Shown here: positions 44,412 through 57,735 of the stretch, one piece after another
Position numbering within the stretch: the first letter of the stretch is position 1
How the letters are laid out: every line of letters starts with the position of its first letter
Assembly: GCF_024228315.1 (NCBI RefSeq)
Contig: NZ_CP100454.1
Location: 2,046,001 to 2,110,000 of the forward strand
Origin: Halomarina pelagica
GTDB taxonomy: Archaea; Halobacteriota; Halobacteria; Halobacteriales; Haloarculaceae
Reading direction: 5' to 3'
DNA length: 64,000 nt
Translations under genes and position numbers: made by a program
The notes under the pieces: model-generated
What the model saw: only the letters and a program-made list of their open reading frames with translations
What the model was told of the DNA's origin: nothing
Database searches by the model: none

Positions 44412-44465
44412 GATGGCAAGCCTGCCTACCACTCGAAAACGCTTTATCGTTTTAGGCTAGCCTAA
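44412..44465 (+). promoter_or_regulatory. Iron-box operator pair, promoter of the first binding-protein gene
   Basis: A perfect palindrome TTAGGCTAGCCTAA lies at 44452-44465, five bases before the ATG at 44471, over the expected transcript start. A TATA-like GCTTTATCG precedes it at 44441-44449. A weaker site with the same core, GGCAAGCC within 44412-44425, lies 40 bases upstream. The palindrome closely resembles DtxR/SirR-type iron repressor sites (TTAGG-type arms). Repression with iron bound is the likely mode, from family knowledge. Confidence 0.75.
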
Positions 44466-44470
44466 TTCTC

Positions 44471-45649
44471 ATGACGGACGACGCGCGGCGTGACGCACCG
44501 ACGCGCAGGGACGCGATCAAGTACGGCGGCGCACTCGTGAGCGGGGGGTTGCTCGCGGGCTGTACCGGCGACGGCGGATCCGATTCTCGATCCAGCGGGG
44601 CCGGTTCGAACGCGGCGACGGATACGCCGTCCGAGGGTGGGTCCGCTACTCGCGACTCCTCGTACTCGGTGACGATGGAGCCGGTCGGGACCGTCGAGTT
44701 CGATCGGGTTCCCGAGACCTGGTTCCCGTACACCGGCGACTACGCCGACATGGGCGTCGCGCTCGGCCGGGGCGACGGGCTTCTGGCGATCGGCGTCCGC
44801 GCCCGCTTCGGAACCCACCTGTACGAGGAACTACCGGGCGTCTCCGTAAACGAGGACGACCTCACGCAGTTGTGGCAGGACGGCACCGGCAAGGAGATCT
44901 TCTACGAACTCGACGCGGACGTCCACGTGATCGACCCGAACTTCATGATCAACCGGCTGCAGTGGAGCCGGGACGACGTCGACGAGGTCGCGGAACGCGT
45001 CGCGCCGTTCTTCGGGAACACGGGCTTCACGCGGGTCTACGACTGGCACGACTACCGGTACTACTCGATGTACGAGGCCTTCGAGAAGCTCGCGGAGGTG
45101 TTCCGGGAGCGAGCGCGCTACGAGGCGTTCGAGGAGTACCACGACGAGGTGCTCGCGGACGTCCAGTCGCGCTTGCCCGAGGATACGCCGGACGTCGCGG
45201 TGCTGTATCCCGCGGGGATGCCTCCCGAGTCGTTCTACCCGTACCTCGTCGGTTCCGGAACCCAGTCCAAGCACTGGAGCGACCTGAACGTCGGGGACGC
45301 GCTCGCCCGGCACGGGGTCACGGACGCGCAGGTGAGCGGCGGCACCGTCGACTACGAGACCCTGCTCGAGATCGATCCAGACGTCCTCGCCATCCGACTC
45401 CAGGGGGAGATCACCCCGGAGTACTTCGAGCGGGAGATCGTCTCGCACCTCCGGAACCACGACGTCGCGAGCGAGCTTCGGGCGGTGCGGAACGACCGCG
45501 TCGTCTACGGCGGGCTCACGTATCAGGGGCCGATCGTCCACCTCTTCCAGCTGGAGCGCGCCGCCCGGGACCTCTACCCCGAGGAGTTCGGCGACGAACA
45601 GCTGTTCGACCGCGGGCGGGTCGCCGACATCGTCAACGGGGACCGCTGA
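44471..45649 (+). CDS. Iron-siderophore type ABC substrate-binding lipoprotein 1
   Basis: 392 residues. The N-terminus has a Tat signal with lipobox: twin Arg at 12-13 (PTRRDAIKYGGALVSG) and LLAGC with Cys31, followed by a Ser/Gly/Thr-rich linker. The mature part is a PeriBP_2-type fold (FecB/BtuF class). Signature segments shared with its paralogues are YADMGVALGRGDGL, KEIFYELDADVHVIDPNF and RVAPFFGN. It stands alone under its own iron-box promoter. It delivers a ferric chelate, heme or corrinoid to a BtuC/FecC permease; the iron box points to iron. The specific ligand is unknown. Confidence 0.88.
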   Translation: MTDDARRDAPTRRDAIKYGGALVSGGLLAGCTGDGGSDSRSSGAGSNAATDTPSEGGSATRDSSYSVTMEPVGTVEFDRVPETWFPYTGDYADMGVALGRGDGLLAIGVRARFGTHLYEELPGVSVNEDDLTQLWQDGTGKEIFYELDADVHVIDPNFMINRLQWSRDDVDEVAERVAPFFGNTGFTRVYDWHDYRYYSMYEAFEKLAEVFRERARYEAFEEYHDEVLADVQSRLPEDTPDVAVLYPAGMPPESFYPYLVGSGTQSKHWSDLNVGDALARHGVTDAQVSGGTVDYETLLEIDPDVLAIRLQGEITPEYFEREIVSHLRNHDVASELRAVRNDRVVYGGLTYQGPIVHLFQLERAARDLYPEEFGDEQLFDRGRVADIVNGDR

Positions 45650-45731
45650 TCGTGAGCGCCGCGACCGAATCGGGAGACGAACTGTGGCGTCCAGACCGTC
45701 GCCGAGTCGGACGCGCGGGCTCCCACTCGAT

Positions 45732-45781
45732 TTTGGCCGGCCTAAACATCGAAGCAGCTATGCCGTATTAGGCAAGCCTAA
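45732..45781 (+). promoter_or_regulatory. Iron-box operator pair, promoter of the second binding-protein gene
   Basis: Two palindromes: TTTGGCCGGCCTAA at 45732-45745 and TTAGGCAAGCCTAA at 45768-45781, 36 bases apart. The second ends five bases before the ATG at 45787. A TATA-like AGCTATGCC lies between them. The spacing and position match the sites before the third gene. The same operon runs through oxidoreductase, permease and the exporter-type transporter. Confidence 0.75.
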
Positions 45782-45786
45782 AACGC

Positions 45787-47010
45787 ATGCAGGGAGACGG
45801 TACGACCTCGAAGGGGCCGACGCGTAGGGACTACGTGAAGTACGGCGGGGCGATCGTCGGGGGTGGGTTACTCGCCGGTTGTGCGAGCGATTCGACCGAC
45901 GACGCAACCCCCGAACCGGCGGCGTCGAACGCGTCGACGGCGACCGACGACGCCGGGTACTCCGTGACGATGTCGCCTGTGGGCGAGGTGACGTTCGAGT
46001 CGGTTCCGGAGCGGGTCGCCGCGTACGGTCCGGACGTCGCGGACGTGCTCGTCGCGCTCGGCCAGGAGGAGCGGCTCAATTCGCTCGGCCTCACCGACTT
46101 CTACGGTGAGACGCTCGCGGTCTACTACGACCGCCTCGACGGCGTCTCGTTCGACGCGTCGGGGCTCACGGCGCTGTACGACGGGGGTCTCGACAAGGAG
46201 GTCTTCTACGAACTCGACAGCGACCTGCACCTCATCGACCCGTGCGGCGTGGTCACGTTCGAGGGGTGGTCGCACGCCGACGTCGACGAGATTCGGGAGA
46301 ACGTCGCCCCGTGGCTAGGTAACGAGTACAGCCGCGAACACTCGGACCCGCCCGAGGGGTGCGCCGAGGACTACGAGTACTACACGCTGTACGAGATCGC
46401 GGAACGCATCGCCGCCGTGTTCAAGCAACGGGAGCGATTCGAGGCGATCGCCGCGGTTCACGAGCGATTTCGGGAGACGATCCGTCGGAACCTCCCGCCG
46501 GAATCGGAGCGTCCGACCGTCGGGCTGATCACCTTCTACGACGAATCGTTCCATCCCTACGAGATCAACGGACCGGGGTACGGCCGCTCGCACGTCCGAC
46601 CGATGGGTGCGGTCGACGTCTTCGCCGACGACGAGCGCGCCTACGGGAACGAATCGGCGGGGAGCTACGGCTACGAGGCGATGCTCGAACTCGACCCCGA
46701 CGTGATCCTCCACAACTTCGCGGTGTTCCCGAGTTTCGACTGGGGAGCGATCCGGGAGACCGTCAGCGGTCACCCGGTCGGGAGGGAACTGAAAGCCGTG
46801 CGGGAGGGTCGGTTCTACGCGTCCGGTGCCGGGATCCAGGGTCCGATCATGAACCTCTTCCAGCTGGAGATGACCGCGAAACAGCTCTACCCCGAGCGGT
46901 TCGGGGAGTGGCCCGGATACGTCGAGGGCCAGCCGTATCCCGAGATCCCCGAAGGAGAGCGGCTGTTCGACCGCGGGCGGGTCGCCGACATCGTCGACGG
47001 AGACATCTAA
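45787..47010 (+). CDS. Iron-siderophore type ABC substrate-binding lipoprotein 2
   Basis: 407 residues. Tat lipoprotein signal PTRRDYVKYGGAIVGGGLLA with lipid Cys just after. The mature protein carries the same PeriBP_2 pattern as its neighbours: VADVLVALGQEERLNSLGL, KEVFYELDSDLHLIDPCG, ENVAPWLGNEYSREH and YEAMLELDPDVILHNFAVFP. The C-terminal NLFQLEMTAKQLYPERFGEW is nearly the same as in gene 3. It is followed after two bases by the oxidoreductase, so it heads the transport operon. Ligand unknown. Confidence 0.88.
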   Translation: MQGDGTTSKGPTRRDYVKYGGAIVGGGLLAGCASDSTDDATPEPAASNASTATDDAGYSVTMSPVGEVTFESVPERVAAYGPDVADVLVALGQEERLNSLGLTDFYGETLAVYYDRLDGVSFDASGLTALYDGGLDKEVFYELDSDLHLIDPCGVVTFEGWSHADVDEIRENVAPWLGNEYSREHSDPPEGCAEDYEYYTLYEIAERIAAVFKQRERFEAIAAVHERFRETIRRNLPPESERPTVGLITFYDESFHPYEINGPGYGRSHVRPMGAVDVFADDERAYGNESAGSYGYEAMLELDPDVILHNFAVFPSFDWGAIRETVSGHPVGRELKAVREGRFYASGAGIQGPIMNLFQLEMTAKQLYPERFGEWPGYVEGQPYPEIPEGERLFDRGRVADIVDGDI

Positions 47011-47012
47011 CG

Positions 47013-47942
47013 ATGAGTACCGCAGGACCCCCTCGAGACAGCACCGAATACGACCACGACGTCGTCATCGTCGGGGGCGGCCCGGCCGGGTGTGCGGTCG
47101 GCGTCTTCACCGCCCGGTACGGCCTCGACACGGTGATCTTCGACCGGGGGCGCTCCTCGATCCAGCGGTGTGCGTACCTCGAAAACTACCTCGGGTTCCC
47201 CGCGGGCGTGGACATCGAGACGCTGTACGGGTTGATGCACGACCACGCCGAGGAAGCCGGCTGCGAGATCGTCGCTGACCTTGTTGAATCCGTGGAACGG
47301 GCTGAGGACGGCGAGGGCTTCATCGTGAAGCCGCAAGAGGGCGATCCCGTCACTGCGCGGCGGGTCGTCGCGGCGACGCGGTACGACGGCGAGTACATGC
47401 GCGGGCTCGACGACGACGCGGCGATGTTCGAGGAGTACGAACACGACGGCGAGACGCACGAGCACTTCGACGGTGAGTACGCCGACCACGACGGCGCGAC
47501 GCCGGTCGAAGGGCTGTACGTCGCCTCCCCATCCACGGAGGACAGACAGGCGTTGATGGCAGCCGGGCGCGGGGCGCGCGTGGGGCTCCGAGTCGTCGAA
47601 GACGCCCGCGAAGACCGCGGCTACCCCCAGGCGGTCGCCGACCACTACGACTGGATACGGCAGGAGTCCGAACTGGACGACGAGTGGAGCGACCGTGACC
47701 GGTGGCGCGAGTGGTTCGACGAGCGACTCCCCGACGATCACGGCCTCGGCGAAGAGCGTCGCGTGGCGTTACGCGAGCGGGACATCGACCGGTCGTTCGG
47801 GACGTACCTCCCCGACGATGAGATCGAGCAGCGTGAAGTGCGCGGTCAGAAGCGGCTGCTCGAACACGTCGACGACGAACTCGTCCTCGACGCGGCGCGC
47901 GAAATCGAGTCCGAACGTCGATCGACCGAGGCGAGCGACTGA
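47013..47942 (+). CDS. FAD/NAD(P)-dependent oxidoreductase of the siderophore operon
   Basis: 309 residues from ATG 47013. The FAD loop VVIVGGGPAGCAVGVFTARY opens the protein and CAYLENYLGFPAGVDIETLY follows, as in thioredoxin-reductase-like enzymes, but there is no C-x2-C redox pair. A late segment GLYVASPSTEDRQALMAAGR is the second FAD contact. Position between a binding protein and a permease suggests reduction of the imported ferric complex to release iron; I infer that from context. The C-terminal 100 residues are highly charged, helical and not part of the core fold (RDRWREWFDERLPDDHGLGE). Confidence 0.8.
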   Translation: MSTAGPPRDSTEYDHDVVIVGGGPAGCAVGVFTARYGLDTVIFDRGRSSIQRCAYLENYLGFPAGVDIETLYGLMHDHAEEAGCEIVADLVESVERAEDGEGFIVKPQEGDPVTARRVVAATRYDGEYMRGLDDDAAMFEEYEHDGETHEHFDGEYADHDGATPVEGLYVASPSTEDRQALMAAGRGARVGLRVVEDAREDRGYPQAVADHYDWIRQESELDDEWSDRDRWREWFDERLPDDHGLGEERRVALRERDIDRSFGTYLPDDEIEQREVRGQKRLLEHVDDELVLDAAREIESERRSTEASD

Positions 47943-47944
47943 CC

Positions 47945-49075
47945 ATGGCCGGGGGACCCGTCACCGACACCACGACTACCACGCGTCGGAAACGCTGGTT
48001 CTCCTGGTTCGACGGCTCGCTCATCACGCTCTGTCTCGGAAGCGTCGCCGTCGTCGTCGTCGGTGGGCTCGTCCAGGTGAGCTTCGGAGCGTTCACGATG
48101 AGCATCGTACAGACGTGGCAGGCCGTGTTCACCCCTGAAGTCGTTCTCAACGCACAGGCGTGGGAGGCGTTCCTGCTCGGAGGAGAGGTTCCCGAAATGA
48201 GTAAGGAGAGCCTCATCGTCTGGAACATCCGTCTCCCGCGAGTGTTCGTCGCCGTGCTCGTCGGGATGAATCTCGCCGTCTCGGGCGCGATCTTCCAGGC
48301 TGTCACCCGCAACGAACTGGCGAGTCCGTTCATCCTCGGCGTCTCCTCCGGTGCGGGACTGATGATCCTGTTGACGCTCGTGGTCTTCTCGGGGCTGTCG
48401 GCGTTTCTTCCGCTCATTGCCTCCATCGGCGGGGCGGTCGCGTTCCTGATCGTCTACGCGATCGCGTGGAAGAGCGGCACCTCGCCGGTTCGACTGGTGC
48501 TGGCGGGTGTCATCGTCGGGACAGTCTTCGGGTCGCTGCAGACGGCGCTGTTCTTCTTCGCCGACGACATCGGCGTCGTCCAGTCCGCCATCGCGTGGAC
48601 CACGGGATCGTTGACCGGAACCGATTGGGAACAGGTCCGAATGGCCCTGCCGTGGACGGCCGTAGCGATGCTGCTGGCACTCGTCAGCTCCCGGCAGTTG
48701 AATGTCCTCTTGTTGGGTGAGAGCACGGCGAAGTCGCTGGGCATGTCGGTGGAGAAGGTCCGCTTCGCGCTCTCGGGCGTGGCCGTGCTCGCCGCGGCTG
48801 CAAGTATCGCGGTCGCGGGTATCGTCGGGTTCGTCGGGTTGATCGTTCCGCACATGGTCCGAAACATCGTCGGCAGCGACTACAAGAAGCTCGTCATCGG
48901 GTGCGTGTTCGCCGGGCCGGCGCTGATGGTCGCCGCGGACGTGGGCGCACGCCTCGGCCTGGCGGTGCTCGTCGGGTCAGACGCGCAGATTCCGGTCGGC
49001 ATCGTCACCGGACTGGTCGGCGGGCCGTACTTCCTCTACCTGATGCGTAAGCAGGACAGGATGGGTGAGATCTGA
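47945..49075 (+). CDS. FecCD/BtuC-type ABC permease
   Basis: 376 residues with nine or ten membrane helices. Family patterns: RLPRVFVAVLVGMNLAVSGA, NELASPFILGVSSGAGLMIL, and the coupling region AGIVGFVGLIVPHMVRNIVG. It imports ferric siderophores or corrinoids as a homodimer and needs a separate FecE/BtuD ATPase. The stop overlaps an ATG (TGATG) that begins the expected ATPase gene, but that gene is a scar. No other complete ATPase of this class is in the window. Confidence 0.9.
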   Translation: MAGGPVTDTTTTTRRKRWFSWFDGSLITLCLGSVAVVVVGGLVQVSFGAFTMSIVQTWQAVFTPEVVLNAQAWEAFLLGGEVPEMSKESLIVWNIRLPRVFVAVLVGMNLAVSGAIFQAVTRNELASPFILGVSSGAGLMILLTLVVFSGLSAFLPLIASIGGAVAFLIVYAIAWKSGTSPVRLVLAGVIVGTVFGSLQTALFFFADDIGVVQSAIAWTTGSLTGTDWEQVRMALPWTAVAMLLALVSSRQLNVLLLGESTAKSLGMSVEKVRFALSGVAVLAAAASIAVAGIVGFVGLIVPHMVRNIVGSDYKKLVIGCVFAGPALMVAADVGARLGLAVLVGSDAQIPVGIVTGLVGGPYFLYLMRKQDRMGEI

Positions 49076-49302
49076 TGCAGGATAGCACGCCCGAGACGGA
49101 CGGCGGCCTCGGGACGATGGCGGAACCGGACTCGACGATAGAGAACGGTCGGCGCGACCCCGGCGGAGGATCGAGGCGACGGTGTCACTCACCGAGCGTG
49201 GGCCGCGGGTCACGTCGATCCGGCCCGCTTCACGAGGATGCGTCGGCGCCGGAAAACGGGGGTACTGGGTCGGAGACGCCGCTGACGGGCCGGCCGTCGT
49301 GA
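49075..49302 (+). pseudogene. Deletion scar of a FecE-type ABC ATPase gene
   Basis: The ATG at 49075 overlaps the permease stop exactly as a FecE gene would. The first 20 or so codons read as a FecE leader (TPETDGGLGTMAEPDSTIE). Then the frame becomes meaningless (Arg/Gly/Ser/Pro-rich) to a stop at 49302. In another frame, 49170 onward reads IEATVSLTERGPRVTSIRP, the usual C-terminal tail of haloarchaeal FecE. Walker A, signature and Walker B motifs are all absent. I infer that one internal deletion of roughly 200-250 codons joined the leader to the tail out of frame. Confidence 0.65.
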
Positions 49303-51215
49303 CTACCCCTGATTCCGAGGCGTTCGAGACGGAACTCGACGCGTACCGCGACCGCGTGTCGAAACCGTTGCTTCGGCTGTTCCGCGCGTACGGCGTCGGC
49401 GAGTGGCGTTGGCTCGCCCTCGGGCTCACCACCAGCGTGCTGACGTACGGTGCGCTGCTCGTCACGCCCATCGTTCTCGGAACGACCATCGACGCCGTGT
49501 TCACACGGGAGAGCGGATATGCCCTCCCGCTCGTGCCCGACGCGTGGCTGCCGACCGGGCAGACCGAGCAGTTCCGGCTCTCGGCGATCATTATCGGCGT
49601 CGCGCTGCTCGGCGGGGCGATCCTCCAGTGGATCCGCGGCGTGGCGATCAACTTCTTCGCCCACGGCGTCATGTTCGCTATTCGCGTCACCGCCTACGAG
49701 AAGATGCAGCGCCTCGACATGACGTTCTTCGATAACAAGGAGACTGGCGAAATTATGTCGATTCTCAACAACGACGCCGGAAATCTCGAAATCTTCTTCG
49801 ACAACGTCCTCGGCGACAGCGTCCGGATCGGCGTGATCGTCGTCGGTGTCATGGCGGCGCTGCTGTACACCAACTGGCAACTCGCACTGGTCACGTTGGG
49901 TGCCGTCCCGCTCTTGGTCGTATTCACGTGGTGGTTCGTTCGGGTCATCGAGCCGCGGTACACTCGCCACCGCGAGACCATCGGCGACCTCAATACGCGC
50001 ATCGAAAACGGGCTCAGCGGGATCGAACTCGTCAAGACAACCGCCTCTGAGGACTTCGAGAACGGCCGCGTCCGGAGCGTCTCGCGGGACGTCTTCGACG
50101 CGAACATGGACGTCTTGAAATTGAGCTACTTCTACCGGCCGGGCATGGAACTCATCACCGGCGCGGCGCTACTCGCCACCTTCATCATCGGCGGAATCTG
50201 GGTGTTCTCGGGACCGCCGCTGTTCTTCACTGGCGACCTCTCCATCGGGGACTTCGTCGTGTTCATGCTGCTCACCCAGCGGCTCACCGGGCCGATGGCT
50301 CAGTTATCTAGTATCGTCGATTGGTACGAGAACGCGCGGGCCTCGGGCAAGCGTATCTGCGGGCTGATGGACGTCCCCGTTCGCATCGAGAACGCGTCGA
50401 ACCCCCTCGCGCTTGATGACGTCGACGGACAAATCGAGTACGACGACGTGACGTTCGCCTACGAGAGCGGTGAGACGGTGCTCGACGGCGTCACGTTCGA
50501 CGTCGAAGCGGGCGAGACGGTCGCGCTGGTCGGCCCGACCGGGGCGGGAAAATCGACGGTGGCGAAGCTCCTGCTCCGACTGTACGACGTGACGGACGGG
50601 GCGGTTCGCGTCGATGGACACGACGTCCGGGATGTGGACCTCGCCGGTCTCCGAGAGGGGATCGGGTACGTGAGTCAGGACACGTTCCTGTTCGACGGGA
50701 CAGTCGCGGAGAACATCCGGTACGGGCGGTTCGACGCGACTGACGAGGAGGCGCGCGGTGCCGCGAGTGCCGCTGAGGCGCACGGGTTCATCGAGAACCT
50801 CCCGGACGGCTACGAGACGCGAGTTGGCGAACGGGGTGTGAAACTCTCGGGTGGTCAACGCCAGCGCATCGCGCTCGCCCGCGCGATCCTCCGGGACCCC
50901 GAGATCATCCTGCTGGACGAGGCGACCGCGAGCGTGGACACGGAGACGGAGTACCTGATCCAGCGGTCGCTCGACCGGTTGACGGCCGACCGGACGACGC
51001 TGGCAATCGCCCACCGCCTCTCGACGATCAAGGACGCCGACACGATTCTCGTCGTCGAGGGCGGGGAGATCGTCGAGCGCGGAAGTCACGACGAGTTACT
51101 GGCCGAGGATGGCTTGTACGCGAAGCTCTGGGGCGTACAGGCTGGCGAGCTAGACGAGCTAGCGGACGAATTTGTTGAACGGGCCGCTGGGAGCGCCGCC
51201 GAGTCGCGCCGGTAA
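49299..51215 (+). CDS. Exporter-fold ABC transporter (membrane domain fused to ATPase)
   Basis: 638 residues from GTG 49299, overlapping the scar's stop (GTGA). Six membrane helices (GLTTSVLTYGALLVTPIVLG and following) lead to a full ATPase: VALVGPTGAGKSTVAKLLLR, LSGGQRQRIALARAI, IILLDEATASVDTETEYLIQ and AIAHRLSTIKDADTI. It is a homodimeric half-transporter of the MsbA type. Mycobacterial IrtAB and yersinial YbtPQ share this fold yet import siderophores, so a role in uptake here is possible; siderophore or drug export is the default. The longer open frame upstream runs through the ATPase scar. Confidence 0.88.
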   Translation: MTTPDSEAFETELDAYRDRVSKPLLRLFRAYGVGEWRWLALGLTTSVLTYGALLVTPIVLGTTIDAVFTRESGYALPLVPDAWLPTGQTEQFRLSAIIIGVALLGGAILQWIRGVAINFFAHGVMFAIRVTAYEKMQRLDMTFFDNKETGEIMSILNNDAGNLEIFFDNVLGDSVRIGVIVVGVMAALLYTNWQLALVTLGAVPLLVVFTWWFVRVIEPRYTRHRETIGDLNTRIENGLSGIELVKTTASEDFENGRVRSVSRDVFDANMDVLKLSYFYRPGMELITGAALLATFIIGGIWVFSGPPLFFTGDLSIGDFVVFMLLTQRLTGPMAQLSSIVDWYENARASGKRICGLMDVPVRIENASNPLALDDVDGQIEYDDVTFAYESGETVLDGVTFDVEAGETVALVGPTGAGKSTVAKLLLRLYDVTDGAVRVDGHDVRDVDLAGLREGIGYVSQDTFLFDGTVAENIRYGRFDATDEEARGAASAAEAHGFIENLPDGYETRVGERGVKLSGGQRQRIALARAILRDPEIILLDEATASVDTETEYLIQRSLDRLTADRTTLAIAHRLSTIKDADTILVVEGGEIVERGSHDELLAEDGLYAKLWGVQAGELDELADEFVERAAGSAAESRR

Positions 51216-51222
51216 CTTTGTT

Positions 51223-51272
51223 TTAGGTTGGCCGAAAAAACGGAACTACTATATCGTTTTAGGCGAGCCTAA
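51223..51272 (+). promoter_or_regulatory. Iron-box operator pair, promoter of binding-protein genes 3-5
   Basis: Sites TTAGGTTGGCCGAA at 51223-51236 and TTAGGCGAGCCTAA at 51259-51272, 36 bases apart. The second is a near-perfect palindrome flanked by TT and AA, and ends five bases before the ATG at 51278. CTACTATATCG at 51246-51256, between them, is the TATA element. Occupancy of both sites would block TATA binding and transcript start. Confidence 0.78.
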
Positions 51273-51277
51273 AACGT

Positions 51278-52510
51278 ATGGCAGACGACGCCACGGAACA
51301 CGAGGCACCGACGCGCAGGGAGTACGTGAAGTACGGCGGCGCGGTCGTCGGTGGTGGCCTGCTCGCCGGGTGTACTGGCCAGGGCGAGCCGGAATCCACC
51401 CCGACCGAGACCGAGGACAGGACCACAGCCACGGAGCAGGAATCCACGGAGACGGGCGATTCCTACGAGGTGTGCATGTCGCCGGTCGGCTGTATCGAGT
51501 TCGACTCGATACCAGAGACCGTCGTCACTAACCTATGGATCAATGCGGACACGCTCATTTCGTTTGGAGAAGGGGCCCGTCTAACGGGTATGCGAACGCC
51601 GGAGACGCAAGTCGTCTCCCATTACGATCAACTCCCTGGGGTCGAAATCGACGCGAGTCAATTAGCTGAATTCGAAGTGAGTAACAAAGAACAGTATTAC
51701 GAACTCAGCCCGGACGTCTTCCACGTTGATCCGACAATCCTTCGGCTGTGGTATGACGGGTGGGATGAGAGTGACGTCAGAGAGATAGCCGAAAACGTCG
51801 CGCCGTTTTTCGGTAATGAAGGCAGCCGAACGTGGAGTGAATCGTCCTGGCCTGCCGATGAGGGTTACGAGTTCTACACGCTTGAAGAGCTCACCGAGAA
51901 GCTCGCTCGGATCTACGATGCAGAAAAGAAGGCACAAGCACTCATCAATGTTCGAGAAAAGCTACTAGCGGACATACAGTCGTCACTTCCTCCTGAAAGC
52001 GAGCGCCCGGTCGTAGCTCGTTTGTTATTCTACGATGGTGAAATCTACCCGTACGTATTCAATGGTCCCGGATTTGGCAGGGCACACCAACAACCGATGC
52101 AAGCCAGAGATGCGTTCTCAGGCCTGGAAAAGGTCTACTCGAAGAGTGGTGGTACTATCGACCTCGAAGCGCTGCTGGAGTACGACCCCGACGTGATGAT
52201 CTTCTTCGGTGGTATCGGCTACTGGTTCGATGCGTACGAAGAGACGAAGTCGGAGCTCGAAAACGACTCTGTCGGACAGGAATTGACGGCTATTAAGAAC
52301 GAGCGCTTCTATCGAGGGGGTACGTTCGATCAGGGAATACTGCTGAACCTGTTCCAGTTGGAGATGACCGCTAAACAGCTGTATCCCGAACAGTTCGGCG
52401 AATGGCCTGGCTTTGACGAACAGAGAGTACTCCCCAAGATCCCCGAGGAGGAGCAGCTGTTCGACCGCCAGCGGGTTGCGGACATCGTCAACGGAGACAT
52501 CCGAACATGA
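51278..52510 (+). CDS. Iron-siderophore type ABC substrate-binding lipoprotein 3
   Basis: 410 residues. Tat lipoprotein signal PTRREYVKYGGAVVGGGLLA with lipid Cys in the following GC. The mature part is the same fold as genes 1 and 2 (EQYYELSPDVFHVDPTILR, ENVAPFFGNEGSRTW, LNLFQLEMTAKQLYPEQFGE). Codon use from about 51540 to 52440 is visibly richer in A and T than its neighbours (TTATTC, AATGTT, GAAAAG codons), while the signal region is GC-rich. This suggests a different origin for the mature part. The stop overlaps the next start (ATGA). Confidence 0.87.
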   Translation: MADDATEHEAPTRREYVKYGGAVVGGGLLAGCTGQGEPESTPTETEDRTTATEQESTETGDSYEVCMSPVGCIEFDSIPETVVTNLWINADTLISFGEGARLTGMRTPETQVVSHYDQLPGVEIDASQLAEFEVSNKEQYYELSPDVFHVDPTILRLWYDGWDESDVREIAENVAPFFGNEGSRTWSESSWPADEGYEFYTLEELTEKLARIYDAEKKAQALINVREKLLADIQSSLPPESERPVVARLLFYDGEIYPYVFNGPGFGRAHQQPMQARDAFSGLEKVYSKSGGTIDLEALLEYDPDVMIFFGGIGYWFDAYEETKSELENDSVGQELTAIKNERFYRGGTFDQGILLNLFQLEMTAKQLYPEQFGEWPGFDEQRVLPKIPEEEQLFDRQRVADIVNGDIRT

Positions 52511-53742
52511 GCGACGAGACTACTGACACGGCGGGACCGACGCGGCGAGACTACGTGAAGTACGGCGGCGCGGTCGTCACCGGCGGGCTACTCGCCGGGT
52601 GCACTGGAGGGACCGATTCCGGCGCGTCGCCTACTGACACGGCCACGGAGACAAAGACGCCCGACGGGAGCTACTCGGTGGAGATGTTCCCCGTCGGTGA
52701 GGTGAGGTTCGAGGCCGTCCCCGAAACCGTGACGACGTACAACATGGGATGGGCGGACATGGTCGTCTCGCTGGGACAGGCCGGAACGCTACGGACGAAC
52801 CGGCTGCCTGCCCCCCGGCTGTTCTACGACCGGTTCGATATCGACTACGACGCCGACTGGCCGGCGCTGTGGCAGGACGGTGGGCTTCCCAAGGAAATCT
52901 TCTACGAACTCGACCCCGACGCGTTTCTCATCGACCCGAACCTGCTCGTGGCGTGGGATGACAATTGGGACGAAGCCGACGTCGAGGAGATCGAGAAGAA
53001 CGTCGCGCCCTTCTTCGGCTGTTATAACCGCCGGATCAGAAGCGAGTGGCAGCGGGAACTCGGCTACCCCGAGAAGGCCCCGTCGATGCTCGAGGCGTTC
53101 GACAAGGTCGGCACGGTTCTCGACGAGCGCAAACGGACCGAGGCGTGGCTCGACCTCCACACGGACCTCCAGGCGGAAGTACAGTCACGACTGCCGAGCG
53201 ACGGGGAACCGCCGTCGATAGGGCTCATCAACAGCGGCTCGGACCCGGCGAAAGGGACGTTCTACGTCCTCTATCTGGAGGATGACGGGTACGAGATGAA
53301 GCCCTACCGCGATCTCGGGCTCGTCGAGGCCGACGCGTTCGCCGGCGTCGAAACTGGGCAGTACGGACAGACGGACTACGAGACGATGTTGGAGGTGGAC
53401 CCCGACCTCATTCTCGTTCATTGGGGCATCACGACGGGCTCTGTGACGTTCGATGGTGATGGCGCGTTCGACACCGACCGGTTCCGTGAACAGTTCGTCG
53501 CGCCGATGGAAGAACACGAGATCGGGAGCCGACTCACCGCAGTGCGGAACGGTCGGGTTCTTCCCGGCCCGACCGCCGAACAGGGGCCGCTCGTCAACGC
53601 CTTCCAGACGGAGCTGACTGCTCGGCTGTTCTATCCCGAGGAGTTCGGCGAACTCGACCTGAGCGCGCCACTCGACGTACCCGAGGAGGAACAGTTGTTC
53701 GACCGTCACCGGGTCGCAGACATCATCGACGGTGACCTCTAG
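52507..53742 (+). CDS. Iron-siderophore type ABC substrate-binding lipoprotein 4
   Basis: 411 residues. Signal PTRRDYVKYGGAVVTGGLLA followed by the lipid Cys and a Thr/Asp linker. The mature part has KEIFYELDPDAFLIDPNLLV, KNVAPFFGCYNRRI and YETMLEVDPDLILVHWGIT. The GC-rich codon use resembles genes 1 and 2, not gene 3. It is translationally coupled to gene 3 and is followed after one base by the broken fifth copy. Compared with gene 2 the ligand-facing loops differ, so the set probably covers several ligands (inference). Confidence 0.87.
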   Translation: MSDETTDTAGPTRRDYVKYGGAVVTGGLLAGCTGGTDSGASPTDTATETKTPDGSYSVEMFPVGEVRFEAVPETVTTYNMGWADMVVSLGQAGTLRTNRLPAPRLFYDRFDIDYDADWPALWQDGGLPKEIFYELDPDAFLIDPNLLVAWDDNWDEADVEEIEKNVAPFFGCYNRRIRSEWQRELGYPEKAPSMLEAFDKVGTVLDERKRTEAWLDLHTDLQAEVQSRLPSDGEPPSIGLINSGSDPAKGTFYVLYLEDDGYEMKPYRDLGLVEADAFAGVETGQYGQTDYETMLEVDPDLILVHWGITTGSVTFDGDGAFDTDRFREQFVAPMEEHEIGSRLTAVRNGRVLPGPTAEQGPLVNAFQTELTARLFYPEEFGELDLSAPLDVPEEEQLFDRHRVADIIDGDL

Positions 53743-57456: not shown

Positions 57457-57503
57457 TTTGGTCGGCCTAAATCGATGCGCTCAAGTATTTTAGGCCGACC
57501 TAA
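57457..57503 (+). promoter_or_regulatory. Iron-box operator pair outside the island
   Basis: Sites TTTGGTCGGCCTAA at 57457-57470 and TTAGGCCGACCTAA at 57490-57503, 33 bases apart, the second flanked by TTT and A. It ends six bases before an ATG at 57510. This is the same architecture as the sites at 45732 and 51223, 3.4 kb past the end of the island. It should place the small gene that follows in the same iron regulon. Confidence 0.75.
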
Positions 57504-57558
57504 ACCGGTATGGACGCCGGACGAACGGAACGCGAACCGGAGAACGGGGGGATCGACC

Positions 57559-57735
57559 GTGCGGGCGCGTGAGTGGGTCGTCGCCTCGCTGTACTACGGG
57601 CCGGAGGACTACGACATCCCGCCGCTGCCGCGCTGGCGCGAGGGGCGCGACGAGTGCGGTCGGCTGGCGCTGTTCGCCGCGGGGACGGACGAACCGTTCA
57701 TCACCTGTGCGAGGCCGGTGACGGTGCGCCGGTAG
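57559..57735 (+). CDS. Small iron-box-controlled protein, apparently frameshifted near its start
   Basis: From GTG 57559 the frame gives 58 residues (VRAREWVVASLYYGPEDYDI, then RWREGRDECGRLALF and ITCARPVTVRR). But the iron-box spacing points to ATG 57510, whose frame ends after 20 codons at 57572. Removing one G from the run of six at 57545-57550 would join the two into a 74-residue protein. Either a sequencing or real frameshift broke the gene, or a 20-codon leader overlaps it. Trp, Tyr and two Cys residues are the notable content. I do not recognise the family. Confidence 0.55.
   Translation: MRAREWVVASLYYGPEDYDIPPLPRWREGRDECGRLALFAAGTDEPFITCARPVTVRR

Follow-up and report, generated by a model that had tools for sequence, protein, structure and literature searches.

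Several described systems resemble the arrangement reported here in part. In gene pairs known from Haloferax volcanii and E. coli to be coupled by termination-reinitiation (TeRe; PMC6728339, PMC10666635), the stop codon of the upstream gene overlaps or abuts the start codon of the downstream one, the Shine-Dalgarno (SD) motif lies within the upstream ORF, and independent initiation at the second gene is not expected. Thirteen of the 14 overlapping pairs tested in the two organisms proved to be strictly coupled (PMC6728339). Reinitiation in H. volcanii requires near-contact of stop and start and falls nearly to zero when the two are 22–23 nt apart (PMC10666635), and overlaps of more than 8 nt are rare in this organism; in E. 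coli the last 15 nt of the upstream gene suffice. In H. volcanii, SD motifs help reinitiation more in some cases than in others (PMC6728339) but are ineffective in 5'-UTRs (PMC3986360), so that an SD element such as the one described below points to reinitiation.

The iuc/dat siderophore operon of H. volcanii is iron-regulated and, according to the available part of its description, translationally coupled throughout (PMC7407949); the coupling is described there among six genes and the word 'leader' does not occur in that part of the text, whereas the dat leaders found here precede the first gene of this operon. ORFs of 15–31 residues upstream of genes are known from the same haloarchaeon (PMC4983044), but, as far as the accessible portion of that report goes, they are acidic, were sought only in 5'-UTRs of 150–250 nt, and are described with neither an iron link nor abutting stop and start codons. 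A leaderless bicistronic design for Corynebacterium (PMC10367133) combines a leaderless promoter, a short fore-cistron and an SD motif with the target gene behind them; it is engineered and bacterial, whereas the leader device described below is apparently natural and conserved in archaea. As far as the literature was searched, such a leader-ORF device has not been described in an archaeal iron regulon.

Iron operators upstream of a small gene

The stretch of DNA analysed, 64,000 nucleotides long and referred to here as the window, contains an iron-siderophore ABC island (window 44452-53739) with four Peripla_BP_2 binding-protein genes, FecCD and a fused ABC transporter. The small gene treated here lies outside this island and is flanked by prs and ileS. 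It is preceded by two operators, TTTGGTCGGCCTAA (57457..57470, no strand), which has one mismatch to the iron palindrome TTAGGN4CCTAA, and the main operator TTAGGCCGACCTAA (57490..57503, no strand), an exact palindrome of this type; their regulator is presumably of the DtxR/Idr type. The distance from the upstream operator (57457) to the second site (57490) is 33 bp and resembles the pairs at 45732/45768 and 51223/51259, and the upstream operator is retained both in the sister species, G051, and in a further relative, G053. Seven operator-like sites were observed in the window against an expectation of 0.06, the remaining ones preceding binding-protein genes of the iron-siderophore island; genome-wide, the exact pattern occurs 18 times and the reversed pattern not at all. 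Three island genes are operator-led, and in each of them exactly 5 nt separate the operator from the ATG.

The main operator is followed, after a gap of 6 nt, by ATG 57510, and six operator-driven genes for putative binding proteins in the same genome have their ATG 5–6 nt past the operator. A TTAGGN4CCTAA-type palindrome, held at a fixed spacing to the start and common to iron-uptake genes, is found at the small gene, which supports its membership in the haloarchaeal iron (DtxR/Idr-type) regulon, with presumed binding of the repressor at these sites. In an alignment of 43 leaders the A+T content peaks roughly 28 to 21 nt ahead of the leader ATG, partly within the operator, and the matching positions of the window mark a candidate TATA-like element (57482..57489, forward strand). 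With the peak at this distance, the transcript would start at or near ATG 57510.

The 58-residue protein and its GTG start

The frame opened by ATG 57510 comprises 20 codons, and the conserved protein is encoded in the next frame, as an earlier sequence-only reading of this DNA had noted and direct reading confirms. The gene (57559..57735, forward strand) begins with GTG and ends with TAG (57733-57735). Homologues, 56–58 residues in length, occur in 22 of the 146 genomes of the taxonomic family and in 98 of the 391 class genomes sampled, which marks the gene as real and not a product of chance. The genome itself holds a single clear copy, and in the other five members of the genus the gene was detected neither behind prs nor, by profile, elsewhere. 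The N-termini of the homologues read M(R/L)AR.W.IA and align to GTG 57559, and an in-frame stop stands immediately 5' of the start in four of the first 22 homologues and in most of the best class matches, and overall in dozens of relatives. Since the homologues begin exactly at this position and many of them carry an in-frame stop directly upstream, the protein, as judged from these alignments, starts at its own GTG 57559.

Searches of Pfam and NCBIfam returned no significant match, and the family is unnamed; sequence and fold searches of the PDB likewise gave no significant relative of the small protein. Its AF2 model (mean pLDDT 85.5, pTM 0.50) consists of a helix and a three-stranded sheet. 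The predicted three-stranded beta meander and an LP.W...G pattern recall the WW domain (PF00397), but the protein has an extra N-terminal helix and lacks a significant sequence or structure match to this domain, with one of 22 members matching at E 0.01 and no PDB match with Z of at least 2.

The sequence-only reading had proposed a small iron-homeostasis protein. The operators support such a role, as does the recurrent location of the gene downstream of genes for iron-siderophore binding proteins; a second subfamily located behind XdhC-type genes fits it less well. The members of this subfamily (LARTW...P.AP.F; L031, L039, L179, L181, L184, L190 and L193-L197) stand directly behind XdhC/CoxI-type genes, in place of iron binding proteins. 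The neighbours prompt the rather doubtful guess of a more specific function, that of an accessory factor in the uptake of ferric siderophores. A binding-protein match is found in 85 of the 98 genomes with the small gene and in 219 of the 293 without it, a difference too slight to establish that the two genes belong together functionally. Family copies with a disturbed frame were seen at L199, L200 and L189, with a run of nine G in the L199 leader; these are either pseudogenes or sequencing errors.

Leader ORFs at the small gene and at dat

The 20-codon leader ORF MDAGRTEREPENGGIDRAGA (57510..57572, forward strand) extends from ATG 57510 to TGA 57570-57572 and overlaps the main gene by 14 nt. 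Within it lies the SD element GGGGGGATC (57546..57554, forward strand), composed of a six-G run and GATC, with 7 nt between the G run and the GTG; the run occupies 57546-57551, one base further than the 57545-57550 given previously. The duplex of this element with the 16S tail of the same genome, GGATCACCTCC, amounts to −14.5 kcal/mol, among the strongest of the family, and the counterpart in G051, GGAGGGATC, reaches −15.4 kcal/mol. The exact tail pattern ending in CCTCCT is absent from the genome, since the tail reads CCTCCA.

In G051, whose protein is 93% identical, the leader METGRTGRKPENGGIARAGA agrees with that of the window in length, frame and terminal TGA, and GGAGGG stands in the place of GGGGGG. 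In G053, with a protein 81% identical and an ATG start, the leader is exactly 15 nt shorter (15 codons), with frames unchanged and the same TGA. This stop is supplied by the CGT-GAG codon pair for R4 and E5 of the protein (57568..57573, forward strand), and it exists because Arg4 is encoded by CGT, a codon used at this position by all three members of the window lineage and by none of the 65 other homologues with R4-E5. As the window, G051 and G053 are related, CGT represents the choice of one lineage. The openness of the leader in this lineage was rejected as evidence on its own: shuffled leaders of the window, G051 and G053 stay coupled in 98–100% of cases. No signal of a binding-protein remnant was obtained in the head or tail of these three leaders (p 0.17–0.99), so that an origin from a binding-protein gene is indicated for some other loci only.

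Among the relatives, 46 loci lie behind an iron-siderophore binding-protein gene whose stop is positioned at −2 to +1 of the small-protein start, and 17 further binding-protein loci carry an in-frame extension or an interposed ORF that starts at most 8 nt from the binding-protein stop (26 codons long in L064). Operator-driven stand-alone copies have the leader ATG 4–7 nt past the operator in 17 of 17 cases. Eleven of these 17 leader frames are coupled (ending at −2, −1, 0 or +14), six are fused and none ends early or late, against 3.8 coupled, 6.6 fused, 5.4 early and 1.2 late expected from shuffles, with the frame-disturbed L189 and L199 excluded, with shared ancestry among the window, G051 and G053 as well as among several other loci, and with this trio being uninformative in the shuffle test. 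In leader-coupled stand-alone relatives outside the window lineage, the stop lies 0 to −2 from the start. The leader of L049 ends with VIPEETRPIDRERVADAVRGDR, like a binding protein, that of L037 carries APTRR, and the leader of L037 and the interposed ORF of L064 begin like a binding protein (empirical p about 0.01–0.03 each, uncorrected); on this comparison, some stand-alone leaders look like collapsed remnants of a binding-protein gene.

Across the family the SD is strong where a start would have to be reached by reinitiation, with a median of −10.9 at leader-coupled starts and a value of −7.1 behind a binding-protein stop, where a control stretch gives −4.0. It is weak inside a fusion (−5.3) or an extension (−5.7); coupled and extended starts differ in SD strength with p = 7e-6 by a statistic that ignores relatedness.

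The same architecture is encountered in this genome at L223 (C1 about 3011731-3013196, minus strand), a putative siderophore dat gene. Here a 20-codon ORF, MPEHGDTIPVAVVSSGGVLA, opens 7 nt past an operator pair (C1:3013147-3013196), and its stop overlaps the start of a class-III aminotransferase gene as GTGA, with GGAGGTGT ahead of the overlap. By its resemblance to the gene that opens the siderophore operon of haloarchaea, this aminotransferase gene is taken here to be dat. An operator is present at 26 of 30 dat loci, and at all 26 of these a leader of 16–24 codons ends in an overlap of 4 or 1 nt; with frame and downstream sequence held fixed, 18.0 would be expected. Several of the loci are close relatives. 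The dat leader at L223 may be a more important find than the small gene. At the operator-less dat loci L237, L245 and L248, a short ATG or GTG ORF seems, by eye, to overlap the dat start as ATGA. Small ORFs with an iron operator also occur at L218 (C1:2474848) and L225 (C1:3023627); with 53 and 47 residues they look alike by eye, and one of them weakly resembles DUF7331.

Probable reinitiation at the GTG and its alternatives

The best explanation, and a probable one, is leaderless initiation on the leader followed by termination-reinitiation at the GTG, with the architecture read from the sequence and with coupling, transcript start and repressor binding inferred. An iron-repressed promoter would give rise to a leaderless or nearly leaderless mRNA that begins with ATG 57510 or very slightly ahead of it; ribosomes would load on this 5'-terminal ATG, translate the 20-codon leader, whose peptide sequence would be irrelevant, and terminate at TGA 57570-57572, where the SD element, i.e., the G run with GATC, would hold them for reinitiation at GTG 57559. 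The product would be a 58-residue cytoplasmic iron-starvation protein. An overlapping leader ORF had been the fourth option of the sequence-only reading, and the architecture in the relatives favours it.

The locus shares with TeRe pairs the overlap of stop and start and the position of the SD element within the upstream ORF, and differs from them in that the upstream partner is a leader of 15–65 codons without evident product, situated at the presumed 5' end of the mRNA, and in that the overlap in the window is 14 nt instead of 4 or 1. The stop lies within the TeRe distance of about −8 to +6 nt from the start in the other leader-coupled stand-alone relatives, at the 46 binding-protein loci and at dat; the 14-nt overlap falls outside this range, and the window gene would thus work like a TeRe pair rather than be a canonical member. 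In this context one should consider that, with overlaps of more than 8 nt being rare, backward reinitiation in the window lineage is less well supported than for the relatives, which is the main weakness of this explanation.

Direct initiation at GTG 57559 on a short 5'-UTR, with the leader ORF being incidental, is unlikely but deserves some weight: it would accommodate the unusual overlap, the open shuffled leaders of the window lineage and the poor conservation of the leader peptide (15 of 20 residues kept between the window and G051, versus 55 of 58 in the protein), but it has to contend with an SD element among the strongest of the family in a setting where SD motifs fail in H. volcanii, with the recurrence of the architecture at unrelated loci and at dat, with a stop kept by a rare CGT codon, and with a change in leader length by a multiple of three. 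It is very improbable that the leader encodes an attenuator or regulatory peptide by which the sensing of a metabolite would exert additional control over the iron regulon. Although such leader peptides are known in bacteria, and the leaders kept at all 26 operator-bearing dat loci are often Arg-rich, leader sequence and length vary freely between genera, with no conserved regulatory codons or peptide found among them; small-gene leaders have hardly any residues in common, and the constraint observed is on frame, position and SD.

The sequence-only reading had also offered a sequencing error, a recent lesion or slippage on GGGGGG concealing a 74-residue fusion, which is scarcely credible: one G less does join 16 and 58 residues in an open frame, as had been calculated, and in-frame N-terminal extensions in some relatives, though in none of the window lineage, make a fused form conceivable as such. 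Against this, GGAGGG in G051 with unchanged length and frame rules out all three causes, the leader of G053 differs by 15 nt with the same frames, an SD element stands ahead of the GTG, and the homologues begin at 57559, the very position that the sequence-only reading had named as speaking against an N-terminus continuous with the leader. A programmed ribosomal frameshift was rejected on the same GGAGGG and on the leader of G053, 15 nt shorter in the same frames. Judged against these relatives, the apparent frameshift is not real and does not stem from an error in the DNA.

ABCE1, the archaeal ribosome-recycling factor, is an iron-sulphur protein. It is conceivable, though very improbable, that the leader ORFs add a further level to iron control throughout the class, at which siderophore and iron-starvation output would depend on iron-responsive termination-reinitiation via ABCE1.

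With leaderless initiation and reinitiation as the preferred explanation, a suspected error turns into a gene model with the correct start, for a family that has no name and no entry in Pfam or NCBIfam; gene callers will be prone to misplace starts behind such leaders. The protein family is simply uncharacterised, whereas the leader-ORF device is conserved and testable. The family would often be translated by reinitiation behind a siderophore binding-protein gene, and in the stand-alone copies a short leader would replace that gene. Tiny 5'-terminal leader ORFs, which would serve as landing strips for reinitiation, recur in the haloarchaeal iron regulon, the siderophore operon included.
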